From positions 372,001 to 436,000 of the forward strand of contig NZ_JANIBO010000001.1 of assembly GCF_024506395.1 (NCBI RefSeq): a stretch of DNA of 64,000 nucleotides, written 5' to 3'. Below are positions 1,855 through 62,815 of this stretch, one piece after another. The stretch is from Cetobacterium sp. NK01 (GTDB lineage Bacteria; Fusobacteriota; Fusobacteriia; Fusobacteriales; Fusobacteriaceae). The translations under genes were made by a program, and so were the position numbers. The notes below the pieces were generated by a model, which searched no databases, was not told the origin of the DNA, and worked only from the letters and a program-made list of their open reading frames with translations. Each line of letters starts with the position of its first letter. Within the stretch, counting starts at the first letter, position 1.

Positions 1855-3057
1855 TTATATTGAAAATACTTCTGCTAATTTTTCTACTACTTTTATTGTA
1901 TCAGATTCTTTTATAATTAACGAGATTGAAATTTCTGATGTAGTACATTGATAAAATGATGAATCAATCTCTGCTAATACTTCAAAAACTTTTGCTGCTA
2001 CGCCAAAATTACTTATCATTCCTATTCCTACTAAAGATATTTTTACAACTCCTGTTCTTTTTGTAACCTCTATATCTGGAATCTCCTTAGCAATCTCCTC
2101 TAATGATCTATTTAAAAAGTGCTCATCTGTCAAAGGACAAGTAAATCCTATACTTCCCTTAACGTTTTCAACTTCATTTTGTGATATCATATCAACATTA
2201 ACACTATGCTTAGCTAAATTATTAAAAATGATTGCTACATTTTTAGGAATTGCTAAAAAGTTTTCTAAATTTACCATTATAACATTTTTATTTATAGATA
2301 TTCCTGTTACAGCTTTTTTTTCAATTATTTCACTATTATCACATATATATGTTCCTGTTTCAACTCCTAAAGTTTGTCCAACGTAAATCTTAACACCATA
2401 TTTTTTCCCTATTTCAACTGCTCTAGTCTCCATTACTCCTGCACCTAAATTTGCCATCTCCATCATCTCCTCGTATGAAATTTTTTCAAGTTTTTTAGCA
2501 TTTTTATAAACTCTAGGGTCTACACCATATATTCCTGTAACATCTGTATATATCTCGCAATCGCACTTTAATGCTGCAGCTAAGGCAACAGCACTCGTAT
2601 CAGATCCACCTCTTCCTAATGTTGTTATATCGCCATCTTCATTTACCCCTTGAAATCCAGCAACAATTACAATTTTTCCATCTTTTAAATGCTTTTCTAT
2701 TCTATCAATTTTTATGCTTTCGATTTTATTTTTAGTATGTGTTCCACCTGTTCTTATCCCTGCTTGAGCACCAGTTAAAGAGATAGCCTTACATCCAATT
2801 TCTTTTAATGCCATACTTAAAAGAGAGATTGATTTTTGCTCTCCTGTTGATAATAATGAATCAAGTTCTCTTACATCTGGAGTTTCTGAAATCTCTTTAG
2901 CTAATTTTATCAACTCATCTGTTGTTTTTCCCATAGCTGAAACTACAATTACAATTTCATCACCATATTTATAGTTTTTAGATATATCTTTAGCTATATC
3001 TTTTATTTTTTCTATTGTTGCAACTGAGCTTCCCCCAAATTTTTTTACTACTCTCAT
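1855..3057 (-). CDS. lysC: Aspartokinase (lysine-regulated type)
   Basis: Phosphorylates aspartate, the entry step to lysine, threonine and methionine. The 400 residues contain the kinase motif KKFGGSSVA at the N-terminus, the LGRGGSDTSAVALAAAL segment near 150-165 and two C-terminal ACT-type regions (SINKNVIMVNL and VVKISLVGIGM) that usually bind the feedback amino acid. The length matches monofunctional aspartokinases. It is the first gene after the lysine riboswitch and its terminator, so it should be shut off when lysine is plentiful. The RBS TAAGGAGGAAC precedes the ATG. Confidence 0.97.
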   Translation of the reverse strand: MRVVKKFGGSSVATIEKIKDIAKDISKNYKYGDEIVIVVSAMGKTTDELIKLAKEISETPDVRELDSLLSTGEQKSISLLSMALKEIGCKAISLTGAQAGIRTGGTHTKNKIESIKIDRIEKHLKDGKIVIVAGFQGVNEDGDITTLGRGGSDTSAVALAAALKCDCEIYTDVTGIYGVDPRVYKNAKKLEKISYEEMMEMANLGAGVMETRAVEIGKKYGVKIYVGQTLGVETGTYICDNSEIIEKKAVTGISINKNVIMVNLENFLAIPKNVAIIFNNLAKHSVNVDMISQNEVENVKGSIGFTCPLTDEHFLNRSLEEIAKEIPDIEVTKRTGVVKISLVGIGMISNFGVAAKVFEVLAEIDSSFYQCTTSEISISLIIKESDTIKVVEKLAEVFSI

Positions 3058-3154: not shown

Positions 3155-3328
3155 ATCCACGATAGCACAACACCAATTTGGTGACAGTTACATAAATATT
3201 CTTTATGTACCCAGCTTAAATTTTTTAGTAGAAAAACTTAAACTTCGGCAAATTTTCCTTTTAACAAACATCTTTGATCTACTAATCTCAGTTTATTTAC
3301 TAATAAAATTTGCAACCTCTATCAAAAT
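3155..3328 (-). ncRNA. Lysine riboswitch (L box) aptamer
   Basis: The minus-strand transcript matches the lysine riboswitch in order: P1 GAUAG (3319-3323) paired with CUAUC (3161-3165); the AGAGGUUGC core; P2 GCAAAUUUU with AAAAUUUGC; GCCGAAG; a P3 stem ending GCUGGGU; P4 UACAUAAA with UUUAUGUA; and CUGUCACCAAAUUGGUG with its small P5 hairpin, followed by CUAUCGUGG. This parallels the known Bacillus lysC leader segment by segment. It lies between a consensus promoter and the lysC terminator, so bound lysine should favour termination. Confidence 0.93.
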
Positions 3329-3341
3329 ATTAATTTAAGGC

Positions 3342-6756: not shown

Positions 6757-6786
6757 AAAAAACTAGCCTTAAGGCTAGTTTTTTTT
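6757..6786. terminator. Bidirectional terminator
   Basis: Near-perfect palindrome AACTAGCCTTAAGGCTAGTT (6761-6780) with A and T tracts on either side, placed between two convergent genes. It overlaps the stop codon of the minus-strand phosphodiesterase gene. Confidence 0.9.
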
Positions 6787-7762
6787 AAAATTCTAATGAT
6801 TCTCCTTGAGTTGGAAAATAATACTTTATACCATGTATATTATTCTTTAATAGTTCTTTTTTTATATTCTCTCTCGTATTTTCACTCTTTTTTAAACTAG
6901 GTTTTATATGAGTTATAACCACATTTAATCCCTTTAATGTTCCCTTACCTGAATATTTTTCTAAAACCTTAAACTCTTCATTTATCCATCTTGGTGATAG
7001 ATGCCCAAATAGACCTTTATCATCTTTAGAGTTATCAAAGGATGATTCTATCATTATCGCTTTCAGTTTTTTATCTTTTATCAAAGGCCCTAAAACTTTA
7101 AAACTCTCCTCTAACCTATTACTTTTTTCCACTTTATCTGGTCCTACATCTCCATAATATACTATAAATTCACCGTTATTTTCCAATAAAAACATTGTTG
7201 ATTCATAATTGCTATGACTTAACGGAAATGCAGCAACCTTTAAATTTGTACCATTTAGATCTTTAATTTTATTTGGTTCTAATACCTGATATTTATACTG
7301 ATTTAATTTAAATCCCTCACCTTCATTTGAAAAATTTGGCCAAAGTTTCCAATTAAATACATTGTTTTTTAAAGTTTCAATTGTACTATTCAATCCATAA
7401 ATATCCTTTGTAGTGTCTTCTGTTGATGATATTACTAATCCTGATATATGATCTAAATGTCCATGAGATATCAGATATCCTTTTATTTTCTCTCTAAAAA
7501 TATATCCAATATCACTCCACTCTGTATCTTGAGGTATAGTTATATTCTTAAAACTCTCTTTTTCTAATCCTCTTTTTATTCCAGGAAGTACTGTTCCTGC
7601 ATCTAAAGCTATAAAATTTTCATCATTTTTATCTCTTATAAGATATCCAGAAATATTTCCATCCATTACTCCACCGTCACTTCCCAAAGTAATAATTTGA
7701 AACCCTTCAGCATAAGATACTAATGATGAAATAAAAAAAATTGTTGATAATAATTTTTTCAC
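6785..7762 (-). CDS. Exported class II 3',5'-cyclic-nucleotide phosphodiesterase
   Basis: 325 residues with an N-terminal signal peptide (MKKLLSTIFFISSLVSYA). The metallo-beta-lactamase-like core carries the class II cyclic nucleotide phosphodiesterase signature HGHLDHISGLVISS near residue 100, with YYGDVGPD, IESSFDN, GHLSPRW and the late metal ligand VITHIKPS near 285. Members hydrolyse cAMP or cGMP; a signal peptide places this one in the periplasm, so it would act on extracellular nucleotide, perhaps as a purine and phosphate source. The start is GTG at 7760-7762 after GGAGGG. Monocistronic, ending at the shared terminator. Confidence 0.88.
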   Translation of the reverse strand: MKKLLSTIFFISSLVSYAEGFQIITLGSDGGVMDGNISGYLIRDKNDENFIALDAGTVLPGIKRGLEKESFKNITIPQDTEWSDIGYIFREKIKGYLISHGHLDHISGLVISSTEDTTKDIYGLNSTIETLKNNVFNWKLWPNFSNEGEGFKLNQYKYQVLEPNKIKDLNGTNLKVAAFPLSHSNYESTMFLLENNGEFIVYYGDVGPDKVEKSNRLEESFKVLGPLIKDKKLKAIMIESSFDNSKDDKGLFGHLSPRWINEEFKVLEKYSGKGTLKGLNVVITHIKPSLKKSENTRENIKKELLKNNIHGIKYYFPTQGESLEF

Positions 7763-10762: not shown

Positions 10763-12088
10763 TTAAACTATTAAATTTAAAATAGATAACCCACCAATTA
10801 TCCACAAAGTTAAATTTATTTTTTTTAGTTCTCCTGCCGCTATATGAGTTATAATATATGAGACAAATCCAAAACTTAATCCAATACTAATGCTATAAGT
10901 TAACGGCATCATAACTATTGTTATAAAAGCTGGGATAGCTAATTTCATATCTGAAAAGTCTATATTTCCTATAGATTTAAACATAAATACTCCTACTAAT
11001 ACTAGAGCAGGAGCAGATGCATATCCTGGTACTACTCCAACTAAAGGCGTAAATAATAAAGCTAATAAAAATAGTACACTTGTAACAATAGAAGCTAATC
11101 CAGTCCTAGCTCCAGCTGAAATCCCTGCAGCTGATTCTGCAAAAGATGTCACTGTACTTGTTCCTAACATTGCTCCTATTAACGTTGACGAAACATCAAC
11201 TTGAAGCATTCTTTTTAATCCTTTAGCTCCTTCATCACCTTGAACTAGCCCCATATTCTTATAGCAAGCCATCATAAATCCTAATGAATCAAAAAGATCT
11301 ATAAACATAAATGAAAATATCGAACCTATTAATGAAATTTTTAATGCACCCAATATATTTACTTTCATAAAAATTGGATTTATTGATGGAGGCATAGATA
11401 TAAAAGATTTTGGAACTTCAACAATCCCTAAAACCATTCCAATAATTGTTGTTATTGCTATGCTTACTAAAATACCCCCTCTTATTTTTTTTATTTCACA
11501 TATAGCCATTATTGCTAAACCTAAAATACCTAAGACTGTAGGAATTGAAAAGTCTCCCAAGCCAACAAATGTAGCATCATTTGCAACAATTATTCCCATA
11601 TTTTTTAAACCTATAAATGCTATAAATAATCCTATTCCAGAAGTAGCTGCTGTTGAAACTACACTAGGTATAGCATTAGCTATTTTTTCTCTAATTCCAC
11701 CTAATGTCATAATTAGAAAAAATAACCCTGATATAAAAACAACACCTAATGCATCTTCCCAAGAAACTCCTTGCCCTAAAACTAAAGTATAAGTAAAAAA
11801 CGCATTTAATCCCATACCAGGAGCTAGAGCAAATGGTGCATTTGCCCAAAATGCTGCTATTCCAGTTCCAATTGCAGTAGCTAAACATGTAACTGTTATT
11901 AGTGCTCCTTTATCCATTCCAGTTGCAGATAAAATTGCAGGATTTACAAATACTATATAAGCCATTGTTAAAAATGTTGTAAGCCCACCTAAAACTTCTG
12001 TTTTTATTGAACTCCCTCTTTCCTCAACTTTAAAAATTTTCTCTAATATATCCAATGAACTATTTCTTTTTATTACTATTTTTTCCAC
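10763..12088 (-). CDS. NCS2 purine permease (AzgA/PbuG type)
   Basis: About 441 residues with 12-14 hydrophobic segments. The motifs ALAPGMGLNAFFTYTLV near residue 73, the central FMFIDLFDSLGFMMA near 260 and GTSTVTSFAESAAGISAGARTG near 308 are characteristic of proton-coupled guanine/hypoxanthine/adenine permeases. GTG 12088 is chosen as start (GGAGGG eight bases upstream); the longer frame from a TTG would include the RBS. Second gene, 15 bases after the deaminase, under the guanine-type riboswitch, which supports guanine or hypoxanthine import. Confidence 0.92.
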   Translation of the reverse strand: MEKIVIKRNSSLDILEKIFKVEERGSSIKTEVLGGLTTFLTMAYIVFVNPAILSATGMDKGALITVTCLATAIGTGIAAFWANAPFALAPGMGLNAFFTYTLVLGQGVSWEDALGVVFISGLFFLIMTLGGIREKIANAIPSVVSTAATSGIGLFIAFIGLKNMGIIVANDATFVGLGDFSIPTVLGILGLAIMAICEIKKIRGGILVSIAITTIIGMVLGIVEVPKSFISMPPSINPIFMKVNILGALKISLIGSIFSFMFIDLFDSLGFMMACYKNMGLVQGDEGAKGLKRMLQVDVSSTLIGAMLGTSTVTSFAESAAGISAGARTGLASIVTSVLFLLALLFTPLVGVVPGYASAPALVLVGVFMFKSIGNIDFSDMKLAIPAFITIVMMPLTYSISIGLSFGFVSYIITHIAAGELKKINLTLWIIGGLSILNLIV

Positions 12089-12103
12089 TTTGTAACCCTC
12101 CAA

Positions 12104-13474
12104 TTATATTATATCTATTACAGGAAATCTATTTGGTAAAATTATATTTGCTTTATTTTTAATCTCTTTAGATTTTCTATTTATCTCTTCAATTAATTTT
12201 TTTTCATTTAAAACTAAAATCTCTCTCTCCCTCATTAACCATTTTCCATTACACATTGTGGATTCAACATTTTCACTAGACATTGTATAAACAATATTGG
12301 CTATTGGATCATGAAGTGGTAAAGAATGAATTGTATTTGGATTTAAAATTATTAAGTCAGCTTTCTTTCCGGCTTCTAAACTTCCTATTTCATTTTCTAA
12401 CAATGCACATTTAGCACCATTTATAGTTGCCATTTCCAACACTTGTTCTGCTGGTACAACCTTTGGATCTAATGTTCTACCTTTATGAATCAAGGAAGTT
12501 AAATACATCTCTCTCATCATATCCATTCTATTATTTGATGGTGCACCATCTGTTCCAATAGATACACTTAATCCTTTTTCAAGCATCTCTGGTATTCTTG
12601 CAAAACCCAGTACAACTTTCATTGCAGCTGCTGGATTATGAGATACCTTTACATCATATAATCTAAATAAATCTATCTCTCTATCTGTTAACCACACTGT
12701 ATGTACCGCTAATAAATTTGATCCTAATGCTCCTAATTTATGAAGATGTTCAACAGTTGAGTTTCCTCTACTTGATTTTACATAATCATTTTCTGCTGCT
12801 ATTTCTGCTATATGCATATGAATACCTGTTTTTAACTCATCAGCCATTTTTTTAGTTTTTATTATCAAATCATCTGAATTATTAAAAATAGTTCTCAATC
12901 CAAACCATATTTTAATTCTCCCATCTGCTGAATTATTATATTTGTCAAACAATTCTTTTTGTTCTTGAATCTCTTCATCTGCTGTTTTTATCCAATTTGT
13001 TGGTAATCCAACTCCCTCATCCATAACTGATTTTGATAAAGCTGCTCTTATTCCTGTATTTTTTACTGCTTCTACCATAGCCTCAACATATTGTCCTCCT
13101 GATTCTAAAAAAGTAGTAACTCCTGATTTTATCATTTCTACACAACAAGCAGTTGAAGAAATCAATGAACTTTCATAATCAAAACTACTTTCATATGGCC
13201 AAACTCTTTCTCTTAACCAAGTTAATAAATCTACATCATCGGCTATTCCTCTTCCTAATTGTTGGGATAAGTGAACGTGTGTATTAATTAATCCTGGTAA
13301 TATAATTTTCCCTTTAGCATCTATTACTTCCACACTTTCTAGAATTAACTTTTTGTCAATTTTTCCAATTGCTTTTATTGTATCCCCTTCAATCAAAATT
13401 GAACCGTTATTATAAATCTCTCTTCTAGTATTCATAGATACTATATAAGCATTTTTTATTAAAATTTGTTTCAC
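12104..13474 (-). CDS. Amidohydrolase-family purine or adenosyl deaminase
   Basis: 456 residues of the metal-dependent amidohydrolase superfamily. Metal and catalytic motifs are intact: GLINTHVHLSQQLGRG near residue 62 (HxH), GIHMHIAEIAAEND near 220, AVHTVWL near 253 and SIGTDGAPSNNRMDMM near 303. The GIADDVDLLTWL stretch resembles SAH/MTA deaminases and 8-oxoguanine or guanine-type deaminases. First gene after a guanine-type riboswitch and cotranscribed with a purine permease, so deamination of an imported purine base or nucleoside is the likely role. GTG start at 13474 after GGAGG. Confidence 0.87.
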   Translation of the reverse strand: MKQILIKNAYIVSMNTRREIYNNGSILIEGDTIKAIGKIDKKLILESVEVIDAKGKIILPGLINTHVHLSQQLGRGIADDVDLLTWLRERVWPYESSFDYESSLISSTACCVEMIKSGVTTFLESGGQYVEAMVEAVKNTGIRAALSKSVMDEGVGLPTNWIKTADEEIQEQKELFDKYNNSADGRIKIWFGLRTIFNNSDDLIIKTKKMADELKTGIHMHIAEIAAENDYVKSSRGNSTVEHLHKLGALGSNLLAVHTVWLTDREIDLFRLYDVKVSHNPAAAMKVVLGFARIPEMLEKGLSVSIGTDGAPSNNRMDMMREMYLTSLIHKGRTLDPKVVPAEQVLEMATINGAKCALLENEIGSLEAGKKADLIILNPNTIHSLPLHDPIANIVYTMSSENVESTMCNGKWLMREREILVLNEKKLIEEINRKSKEIKNKANIILPNRFPVIDII

Positions 13475-13537: not shown

Positions 13538-13587
13538 AAACACACTCAAAATAAATTATATTATTTTAAGAAAATTTAGAGTATAAG

Positions 13588-13662
13588 CTCTCCCCATAGC
13601 GTCCATATTTAAGGTTAGGACGTAGAAACTTTTGATCCATATTATCAAAATATATGAGTAAA
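13588..13662 (-). ncRNA. Purine riboswitch, guanine type
   Basis: The minus-strand RNA shows the purine aptamer: P1 with UUUACUCAUA and UAUGGGGAGA; P2 UUUUGAU/AUCAAAA closing loop L2 AAUAUGG; the conserved junction GUUUCUAC; P3 beginning GUCC and ending GGAC with loop CCUUAAA; then GCUAUG. The two Gs of L2 and two Cs of L3 can form the usual loop-loop contact. The specificity base in J3/1 is C, which indicates guanine/hypoxanthine. P3 carries a bulged U and the base before the specificity C is G rather than A, both mild departures. Confidence 0.88.
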
Positions 13663-13675
13663 CTTTTTTATTTTT

Positions 13676-13704
13676 ATAATAGCATATTTGTGTTAAAACT
13701 TCAA
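13676..13704 (-). promoter_or_regulatory. Promoter of the purine deaminase-permease operon
   Basis: Minus strand TTGAAG (13699-13704), 17-nt spacer, TATTAT (13676-13681), about ten bases before the aptamer begins. Confidence 0.72.
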
Positions 13705-26479: not shown

Positions 26480-26508
26480 TTGCTAAAATTTTCTTTCCTT
26501 GATACTAT
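26480..26508 (+). promoter_or_regulatory. Promoter of the exported nucleosidase gene
   Basis: TTGCTA (26480-26485), 17-nt spacer ending in TGA, then TACTAT (26503-26508): an extended -10 type. It ends a few bases before the purine aptamer. Confidence 0.65.
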
Positions 26509-26512
26509 TTAT

Positions 26513-26582
26513 TTAGCTCATATATACCTCAAATATGGTGAGGAGTCTCTACAATCAACCTTAAATTGATTACTATGACTTA
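26513..26582 (+). ncRNA. Purine riboswitch, guanine type, upstream of an exported nucleosidase
   Basis: Plus-strand RNA with every aptamer element: P1 AGCUCAUA/UAUGACUU (one mismatch); P2 CCUCA (26527-26531) and UGAGG (26539-26543) closing L2 AAUAUGG; J2/3 AGUCUCUAC; P3 AAUCAA (26553-26558) and UUGAUU (26566-26571) closing L3 CCUUAAA; J3/1 ACUAUG. L2 GG and L3 CC allow the usual kissing contact. The specificity base is C, indicating guanine/hypoxanthine. J2/3 has C in place of the second U of UUUCUAC, a position known to tolerate change. No intrinsic terminator follows before the gene; AGUUUUG (from 26611) can pair with CAAAACU just before the ATG and enclose the AGGAGG, so translational control is plausible. 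Confidence 0.87.
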
Positions 26583-26649
26583 TTAATTATTTTAATAACT
26601 AGTTGTGTAGAGTTTTGGGTATACTTTATTTAGGAGGCAACACAAAACT

Positions 26650-27435
26650 ATGAAAAAAATTATTACAAGTTTTTTATTACTATCTTCTCTTTCATTTTCT
26701 AAAGAAATTATTTTAGTACAAGGTGCTATGGATATGGAAGTAGATTACTTAGTTAAAAATTTAAAAAATCCTACGAAAGAACATGTTGGTTCTTGGACAT
26801 TTTGGAAAGGAACTTTTGAAAATCATAAAGTTATTGTTTCTAGGACAGAAGTAGGTTTAGTCAATGCTGCTGCTGCAACTACAATTGGTATTGAAAGATA
26901 TTCTCCTACCATCATAATAAATCAAGGAACATCTGGTGGACACGATATATCTCTTCATACTGGAGATATAGTACTTGGTTCTGAAATTATAAACATTGGA
27001 GCTATGAGAACTGATAGAAAAGAAGAAGGAGTACCTGAAAATATACGTGATTCTATTTTTTTTGATGTTGTTCAAAGATTAAGAGATAATAATGATAACT
27101 TAACTACATATAAAACTTTTATAAGTGACCCTTCTTTAATTGAAACTGCTAAAAATACAAGCTATTCTCAAGGAAAACTTTCTTTAGGAACTATTGGATC
27201 AGCAGATCAATGGAATCGAGAAATCGAAAGAATTAAATATCTAAATACTACTTTTAAAACAAAAACTGAAGAAATGGAATCAATTGCAGTAGCTCAAACA
27301 GCTAAAGCTTACAATATTCCATTTTTAGCAATAAGAATTCTTTCAAATACAGAGATTCATAATGAAGAATTTAATCCTAAAACAGCTCTTTGGTGTCAAG
27401 AATTTACTATGAATGTTATAAAAAATATAAAATAA
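26650..27435 (+). CDS. Exported purine nucleoside hydrolase/phosphorylase (MTA/SAH nucleosidase-like)
   Basis: 261 residues: signal peptide (MKKIITSFLLLSSLSFS) followed by a phosphorylase-superfamily (PF01048) fold: ILVQGAMDMEVDYL near residue 21, GLVNAAAATTIGIERYSPTIIINQGTSGGH near 73-100, the loop LHTGDIVLGSEIINIGAM near 104, TEEMESIAVAQTAKAYNIPFLAIRILSNTEIHNE near 215-245. The EMES segment matches the MTAN ribose-binding Glu, and the Asn/Asp near SNTE the base-side acid position. It would cleave purine nucleosides or MTA/SAH in the periplasm. A guanine-type riboswitch directly upstream supports a purine-scavenging role. Confidence 0.88.
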   Translation: MKKIITSFLLLSSLSFSKEIILVQGAMDMEVDYLVKNLKNPTKEHVGSWTFWKGTFENHKVIVSRTEVGLVNAAAATTIGIERYSPTIIINQGTSGGHDISLHTGDIVLGSEIINIGAMRTDRKEEGVPENIRDSIFFDVVQRLRDNNDNLTTYKTFISDPSLIETAKNTSYSQGKLSLGTIGSADQWNREIERIKYLNTTFKTKTEEMESIAVAQTAKAYNIPFLAIRILSNTEIHNEEFNPKTALWCQEFTMNVIKNIK

Positions 27436-27457
27436 AAGTCGCTTTGCGACTTTTTTT
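27435..27457 (+). terminator. Terminator after the nucleosidase gene
   Basis: AAAGTCGC-TTT-GCGACTTTTTTT directly after the stop codon. Confidence 0.9.
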
Positions 27458-62290: not shown

Positions 62291-62815
62291 TTACTTTCTA
62301 ACTACTTTTCCAATATAAGGAAGGTTTCTATATAGCTCATCATAATCTAAACCATACCCCACTACAAATTCATCTGGTATTTCAAATCCAATATATTCCC
62401 CAACCATTTCAACTTTTCTTCTACTTGGTTTATCTAATAAAGAACATACTTTTAAAGATTTTGGTTGTTTTGACATCAAGAACTTTTTTACAGACTCTAA
62501 TGTTAAACCTGTATCAATTATATCTTCTATAATTAAAACATCTTTTCCTGTCAAATCTTCATCAACATCTTTTAAAATCTTTACTACACCTGTACTGTCA
62601 GTTCCACCATGGTAACTAGAGACTTTCATGAAATCCATAGCTAAATCTAGCTCAACACTTTTTAATAAATCAGCCATGAACATGATTGATCCCTTTAGTA
62701 AACCTACGCAAATAAGATCTTTTCCTGCATAATCTTTTTCAATCTCTTTTGCAACCTCTTTTATTCTAGCCTGTAAATCTCCTTCAGAAATCATTTTCTC
62801 TATTGTGTAATCCAT
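62291..62815 (-). CDS. hpt: Hypoxanthine-guanine phosphoribosyltransferase
   Basis: 174 residues. VGLLKGSIMFMADLLKSV near 37-54, the PRPP-binding loop VLIIEDIIDTGLTLESVKKF near 93-112 and KVCSLLDKPSRRKVEMVGEYIGFEIPDEFVVGYGLDYDELYRNLPYIG near 122-170 give a textbook HPRT. It salvages hypoxanthine and guanine to IMP and GMP, the fate of purines brought in by the NCS2 permease. No purine riboswitch precedes it; promoter on minus strand TTGATA, 17 nt, TAGAAT. Confidence 0.96.
   Translation of the reverse strand: MDYTIEKMISEGDLQARIKEVAKEIEKDYAGKDLICVGLLKGSIMFMADLLKSVELDLAMDFMKVSSYHGGTDSTGVVKILKDVDEDLTGKDVLIIEDIIDTGLTLESVKKFLMSKQPKSLKVCSLLDKPSRRKVEMVGEYIGFEIPDEFVVGYGLDYDELYRNLPYIGKVVRK

Follow-up and report, generated by a model that had tools for sequence, protein, structure and literature searches.

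Purine riboswitches have been described mostly in front of genes for purine synthesis, salvage and transport. Among exported nucleosidases, the closest solved example to the present locus is the Aeromonas hydrophila MTA/SAH nucleosidase of structure 5b7g, presumably described by Xu et al. 2017. The title of that paper, as referenced in PMC6371041, calls the A. hydrophila enzyme periplasmic. Guanine riboswitches in C. difficile regulate four units, namely guaA, xpt and two permeases (PMC11477304).

Here we analyzed a 64,000-nucleotide stretch of the Cetobacterium sp. NK01 genome (the window), in which these two kinds of element stand together. We regard the conserved guanine-class riboswitch on the gene of an exported nucleosidase, set within a regulon of further exported purine enzymes, as genuine. 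The parts themselves are of known kinds; new are their combination and a specificity prediction for the Asn-type enzymes. It is quite probable, in our judgment, that an OFF riboswitch sensing cytoplasmic guanine or hypoxanthine controls an exported enzyme that acts beyond the inner membrane to hydrolyse purine nucleosides, as one unit of this regulon. An earlier note on this DNA had proposed that such cytoplasmic sensing governs an exported base-freeing enzyme. This reasoning gains weight from what we found elsewhere in the genome and in relatives, including a wider regulon with two exported deaminases that the note had overlooked.

The exported nucleosidase and its regulon

The gene at 26650-27435 (+ strand) encodes a 261-aa protein with the N-terminus MKKIITSFLLLSSLSFSKEI. 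Pfam PF01048 (PNP_UDP_1) matches it at 1.5e-33, with 116.6 bits against a cut-off of 25.1, and the nearest solved structure is 5b7g (1.1e-73); homology to solved structures at 1e-73 settles the fold. Compared with cytoplasmic homologues in the alignment, the protein has about 17 extra N-terminal residues (MKKIITSFLLLSSLSFS followed by KEI) that resemble a type-I signal peptide. Export is thereby predicted, and the enzyme is probably periplasmic. As it has this signal peptide and groups with A. hydrophila 5b7g, it belongs to an exported clade of the superfamily, here called N-type. At the water/ribose site of nucleosidases, the window protein retains the glutamates (motifs GAMDxE and EEME), for which reason we rejected a phosphorylase reading of the enzyme. 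These columns correspond to E. coli Glu12 and Glu174, the nucleosidase glutamates. The nucleosidase/phosphorylase-fold gene with a signal peptide that the earlier note described is thus confirmed. Its designation as an exported purine nucleosidase stands as far as an exported enzyme of the nucleosidase family, but the database models name an MTA/SAH nucleosidase and mostly score below their cut-offs: TIGR01704 lies just above (80 vs 73.8 bits), while NF004079 (111.8 vs 169 bits) and the other MTA/SAH nucleosidase models of NCBIfam lie below.

An Rfam scan of the whole window returned three riboswitches: a purine riboswitch before the nucleosidase gene (26498-26595, +), a second purine riboswitch (13577-13677, -) and a lysine riboswitch (3155-3329, -; 105.8 bits), which precedes a gene at 1855-3057 (-). 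The second purine riboswitch, a member of the same regulon, matches RF00167 with 70.3 bits and has a terminator in its leader. It precedes a cytoplasmic amidohydrolase gene (12104-13474, -) whose family matches resemble 5'-deoxyadenosine/MTA/SAH deaminases, and a nucleobase permease gene (Xan_ur_permease; 10763-12103, -) whose ORF abuts the deaminase ORF and which is probably in the same operon. The riboswitch-controlled permease and deaminase listed in the earlier note are therefore borne out. The note had also drawn a window-wide scavenging route, and its other components, an exported class-II cyclic nucleotide phosphodiesterase (6785-7762, -) and an hpt-like phosphoribosyltransferase gene (about 62291-62815, -), are indeed present. 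Since none of the three Rfam matches in the window lies near either gene, both are linked by pathway only and, on this evidence, stand outside the regulon.

Across the genome we counted 11 purine riboswitches. Their targets, some named by eye from sequence, include purE-purK, guaA, adenosine deaminase, NCS2/nucleobase permeases, the nucleosidase and deaminase-permease operon of the window, and a xanthine permease followed by genes resembling a molybdenum hydroxylase. Two further targets encode amidohydrolase-family lipoproteins with a lipobox cysteine at their N-termini, which we read as deaminases of the MTA/SAH/adenosine type; the one that was compared with solved structures best matches the MTA/SAH deaminase 4f0r (8e-75). 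A purine riboswitch also precedes the lipoprotein deaminases of other Cetobacterium, of genome G003 and of the Fusobacterium-type genome G023, and at 100 more riboswitch sites in the family the kinds of target are alike. Taken together, the regulon looks like one for extracytoplasmic purine release that is gated by its end product.

Several other loci deserve mention. The G023 lipoprotein deaminase (L161, G023:C23:5416-6807) is 84% identical and has the riboswitch, which suggests that gene and switch were transferred together. In the NK01 genome, a purine riboswitch of 74 bits (C2:28767-28864) precedes a Crp-like regulator and a GPH-type symporter, with no evident purine gene (L012:1768-2790), and this regulator recurs behind a purine riboswitch in G008 (L063). 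An exported-looking 292-aa protein lies behind a purine riboswitch in G053 (L100, G053:C1:75373). In G005, G009 and G011 (L023-L025), the convergent neighbour of the nucleosidase resembles, by its N-terminal sequence, a BMP-family nucleoside-binding protein; in L024 (2309-3349, -) and L025 this neighbour has its own purine riboswitch (68.8 bits), and G053 has a similar lipoprotein behind a purine riboswitch (L102). A BMP-family gene with one in-frame TAG is found in the NK01 genome itself (L150, G000:C2:491809-492693).

Substrate of the nucleosidase

MTA/SAH nucleosidases have an Asp at the position of E. coli MtnN Asp197, and the window protein lacks it. In the alignment, each of the 13 members of its clade (from Cetobacterium, Fusobacterium-type genomes, Acinetobacter, Photobacterium, Pantoea, Metabacillus and A. 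hydrophila) has Asn in this column, a replacement at the catalytic site that the earlier note had missed. The same column is Asp in DeoD and in every MTA/SAH nucleosidase compared, whether cytoplasmic or exported. A branch with support values of 93/82 separates the Asn clade from the other sequences, and the tree implies one change. In trimeric PNPs, the equivalent Asn makes the enzyme specific for 6-oxopurines and inactive on adenosine (PMC5074518), and its change to Asp lets adenosine in (PMC5074518; PMC6274182). If the analogy holds, nucleosides of the inosine or guanosine type may be preferred by the window enzyme, a prediction that loses some force through the name given to its relative in A. 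hydrophila.

Two accounts of the substrate fit inside our preferred explanation. The first, to which we give somewhat less than an even chance, is that the protein is a periplasmic MTA/SAH/5'-deoxyadenosine nucleosidase like that of A. hydrophila. It would free adenine from 5'-modified nucleosides, either excreted or of host origin, and the switch would gate it since adenine feeds the hypoxanthine/guanine pool. Both the MTA/SAH nucleosidase name of the closest solved protein and the above-cut-off TIGR01704 score favour this account. So does the presence of purine riboswitches on exported Asp-type MTA/SAH nucleosidases of the same genus: an enzyme of this kind, different from the N-type, follows a purine riboswitch and terminator in G006, G007 and a C. 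somerae plasmid. The resemblance of the two lipoprotein deaminases and the cytoplasmic deaminase of the window to MTA/SAH deaminases points the same way. It has to contend, however, with the Asn that replaces the catalytic Asp throughout the clade and with what that residue does in trimeric PNPs.

That Asn is the starting point of the second account, which we hold more tentatively, namely that the N-type enzymes are 6-oxopurine nucleosidases. The lipoprotein deaminases would convert MTA or adenosine to methylthioinosine or inosine outside the cytoplasm, and subsequent hydrolysis would yield hypoxanthine, which belongs to the ligand class of the riboswitch. Consistent with this, Asn is invariant in the clade while Asp is invariant in all paralogues compared, the Asn/Asp rule of PNPs predicts it, and nucleosidase and deaminases share one regulon. 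The rule is nevertheless transferred from phosphorylases to a nucleosidase, and the N-type A. hydrophila protein has been described as an MTA/SAH nucleosidase. Moreover, at a threshold of 1e-80 the exported deaminase is absent from one of the five N-type Cetobacterium genomes (G011) and from all N-type Fusobacterium-type genomes. The fullest form of this account is a shade more speculative again: the Asn-type exported enzymes would be 6-oxopurine nucleosidases, paired in Cetobacterium with the lipoprotein deaminases, and guanine-class riboswitches reading the internal end product would shut off the whole extracytoplasmic pathway.

Aptamer, promoter and leader

Returning to the switch common to both accounts, the RF00167 match at 26498-26595 (+) has a canonical core and covers the full model (1-102). 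It scores 61.0 bits, where the gathering threshold is 37, and its E value of 4.1e-8 refers to both strands of the 64-kb window. The aptamer carries the sequence ..GUCUCUACAAUCAACCUUAAAUUGAUUACUAUGA.., in which -AC- precedes the 3' strand of P1 and puts the specificity C (position 74) at 26573; by this residue the aptamer is assigned to the guanine class. P1 spans approximately 26515-26522/26574-26581 with one mismatch, and J2/3 reads GUCUCUAC, which departs from the consensus by one U-to-C difference. Directly upstream, a promoter at 26480-26508 (+) combines a -35 element TTGCTA (26480-26485), a 17-nt spacer and TGA plus a -10 element TACTAT (26503-26508), with the TG at 26500-26501 (TGATACTAT). 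It matches the consensus at only 8 of 12 positions and hence was absent from a simple consensus-scan list. The motif TTGC, the 17-nt spacing and TGATA(C/T)(T/G)AT are nonetheless common to all five Cetobacterium leaders, that of NK01 and four others. Transcription is expected to start near 26515, that is, at P1.

The small purine model is prone to AU-rich false positives (Barrick & Breaker; PMC2258182), and the leader is low in G+C. Against this concern, the aptamer reaches the Rfam threshold in every Cetobacterium orthologue leader and its sequence is almost invariant there. A chance AU-rich match, or a decayed element (as the P1 mismatch might hint) that does not control the nucleosidase gene, is consequently very improbable given 61 bits over the full model length, a core and promoter register kept in all orthologues, and 10 more purine riboswitches in the same genome.

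The expression platform (26579-26649, +) has no intrinsic terminator. A terminator scan of the region found no such site between aptamer and gene and only one in all, 3' of the gene at 27434-27454 (+). The earlier note had thus correctly read a full purine aptamer with C at the specificity position, a promoter ending just before it and no terminator after it, and the covariance-model scan that it had proposed gave a clear match. Terminators are likewise absent from all four distinct N-type Cetobacterium leaders and present in most of about 100 other purine-riboswitch leaders that we looked at. Shuffled leaders often held some passing hairpin but seldom one as stable as those of real leaders. 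This lack of terminators in the N-type leaders argues for translational control.

Within the platform, TTATTAA/TTAATAA forms a hairpin (26580-26598), and the conserved AGTTTTG at 26611-26617 can pair with CAAAACT at 26643-26649, adjoining the start codon. A Shine-Dalgarno-like AGGAGG (26632-26637, +) lies 12 nt from the start, a long spacing. In modelled folds, enforcing the aptamer left the Shine-Dalgarno mostly paired, and without constraint P1 was not kept intact. The best reading points to a translational OFF switch, with platform pairing as modelled. The conserved TGTAGAG at 26606-26612 could also pair with CTCTACA of the aptamer (26547-26553). We rejected this anti-aptamer pairing as proof of a switch because an aptamer complement of at least 7 nt arises in about 31% of shuffled platforms, within chance, and the pairing rests on its conservation.

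Under the mechanism that we propose, low cytoplasmic guanine or hypoxanthine would leave the start region of the leader open, and the nucleosidase would be made and exported. The bases it frees would be taken up via riboswitch-controlled permeases and salvaged by phosphoribosyltransferases. When base is plentiful, the ligand-bound aptamer would shift the platform towards a fold in which the ribosome-binding and start region is inaccessible. The nucleosidase would thereby act as one unit of a Cetobacterium purine regulon together with the two exported lipoprotein deaminases, permeases, adenosine deaminase, guaA and purE.

Distribution and comparison with described systems

Wherever an orthologue was found in Cetobacterium (five genomes: NK01, G005, G006, G009 and G011), the aptamer lies directly upstream of the nucleosidase gene. 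By contrast, no riboswitch was found at the more distantly related Fusobacterium-type orthologues (G024, G029 and G025-G028), G024 being covered for 220 bases upstream, so nucleosidase and switch are separable. The pairing recurs in another phylum: a homologue on a Metabacillus plasmid is 42% identical, also exported, and has a purine riboswitch 170 bases before its start. This riboswitch has a terminator in its leader and is the only purine riboswitch of the 362-kb plasmid record, which suggests that the Metabacillus wiring arose independently. A scan of the genome contigs returned only one further locus. Among 389 mixed relatives, which together with plasmid and phage records were our sample of Bacillota and Gammaproteobacteria, the N-type clade occurs in only two genera. 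A literature search, confined largely to papers that need no subscription, returned none that links an exported nucleosidase to a purine riboswitch.

Two other arrangements were seen in these genomes. A decayed N-type nucleosidase retains only its C-terminal half, in which a stop codon interrupts the matched frame (L033, G035:C3:40269-40667). In the Fusobacterium-type genomes G024, G027, G029 and G026 (L036-L039), an exported Asp-type MTA/SAH nucleosidase lies directly 3' of metK, which is preceded by a SAM riboswitch, making this another exported nucleosidase tied to a riboswitch.

Our findings indicate that the reach of purine riboswitches extends to exported enzymes which generate the base to be transported; this is so in Cetobacterium and, by what seems a separate origin, on a Bacillota plasmid. 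The findings also offer a cheap and direct test of specificity, as a single residue (Asn vs Asp) and the regulon both predict the role of an exported enzyme that carries an MTA/SAH nucleosidase annotation.

Compared with the xpt-type guanine riboswitch of B. subtilis (RF00167), the window element is alike in its full-length aptamer, specificity C, place between promoter and gene, and regulon of purine synthesis, salvage and transport genes. It differs in that its target is an exported enzyme and that its leader has no terminator, unlike most of the regulon. Sensing class and overall regulon logic are also shared with the guanine riboswitches of C. difficile, whose four listed units include no exported nucleosidase or deaminase (PMC11477304). 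The cytoplasmic MtnN/Pfs, represented by the copy in the NK01 genome (L018), has the fold, the nucleosidase glutamates and the Arg of the RxxS motif in common with the window protein, but has Asp at the catalytic site and no signal peptide. Although from a different phylum, the A. hydrophila MTA/SAH nucleosidase (5b7g, 5b7n, 5b7p, 5b7q) belongs to the same clade as the window protein, is exported, has Asn at the Asp197 site and shares the motifs NQGT(A/S)GGHD, WNR and EEME.
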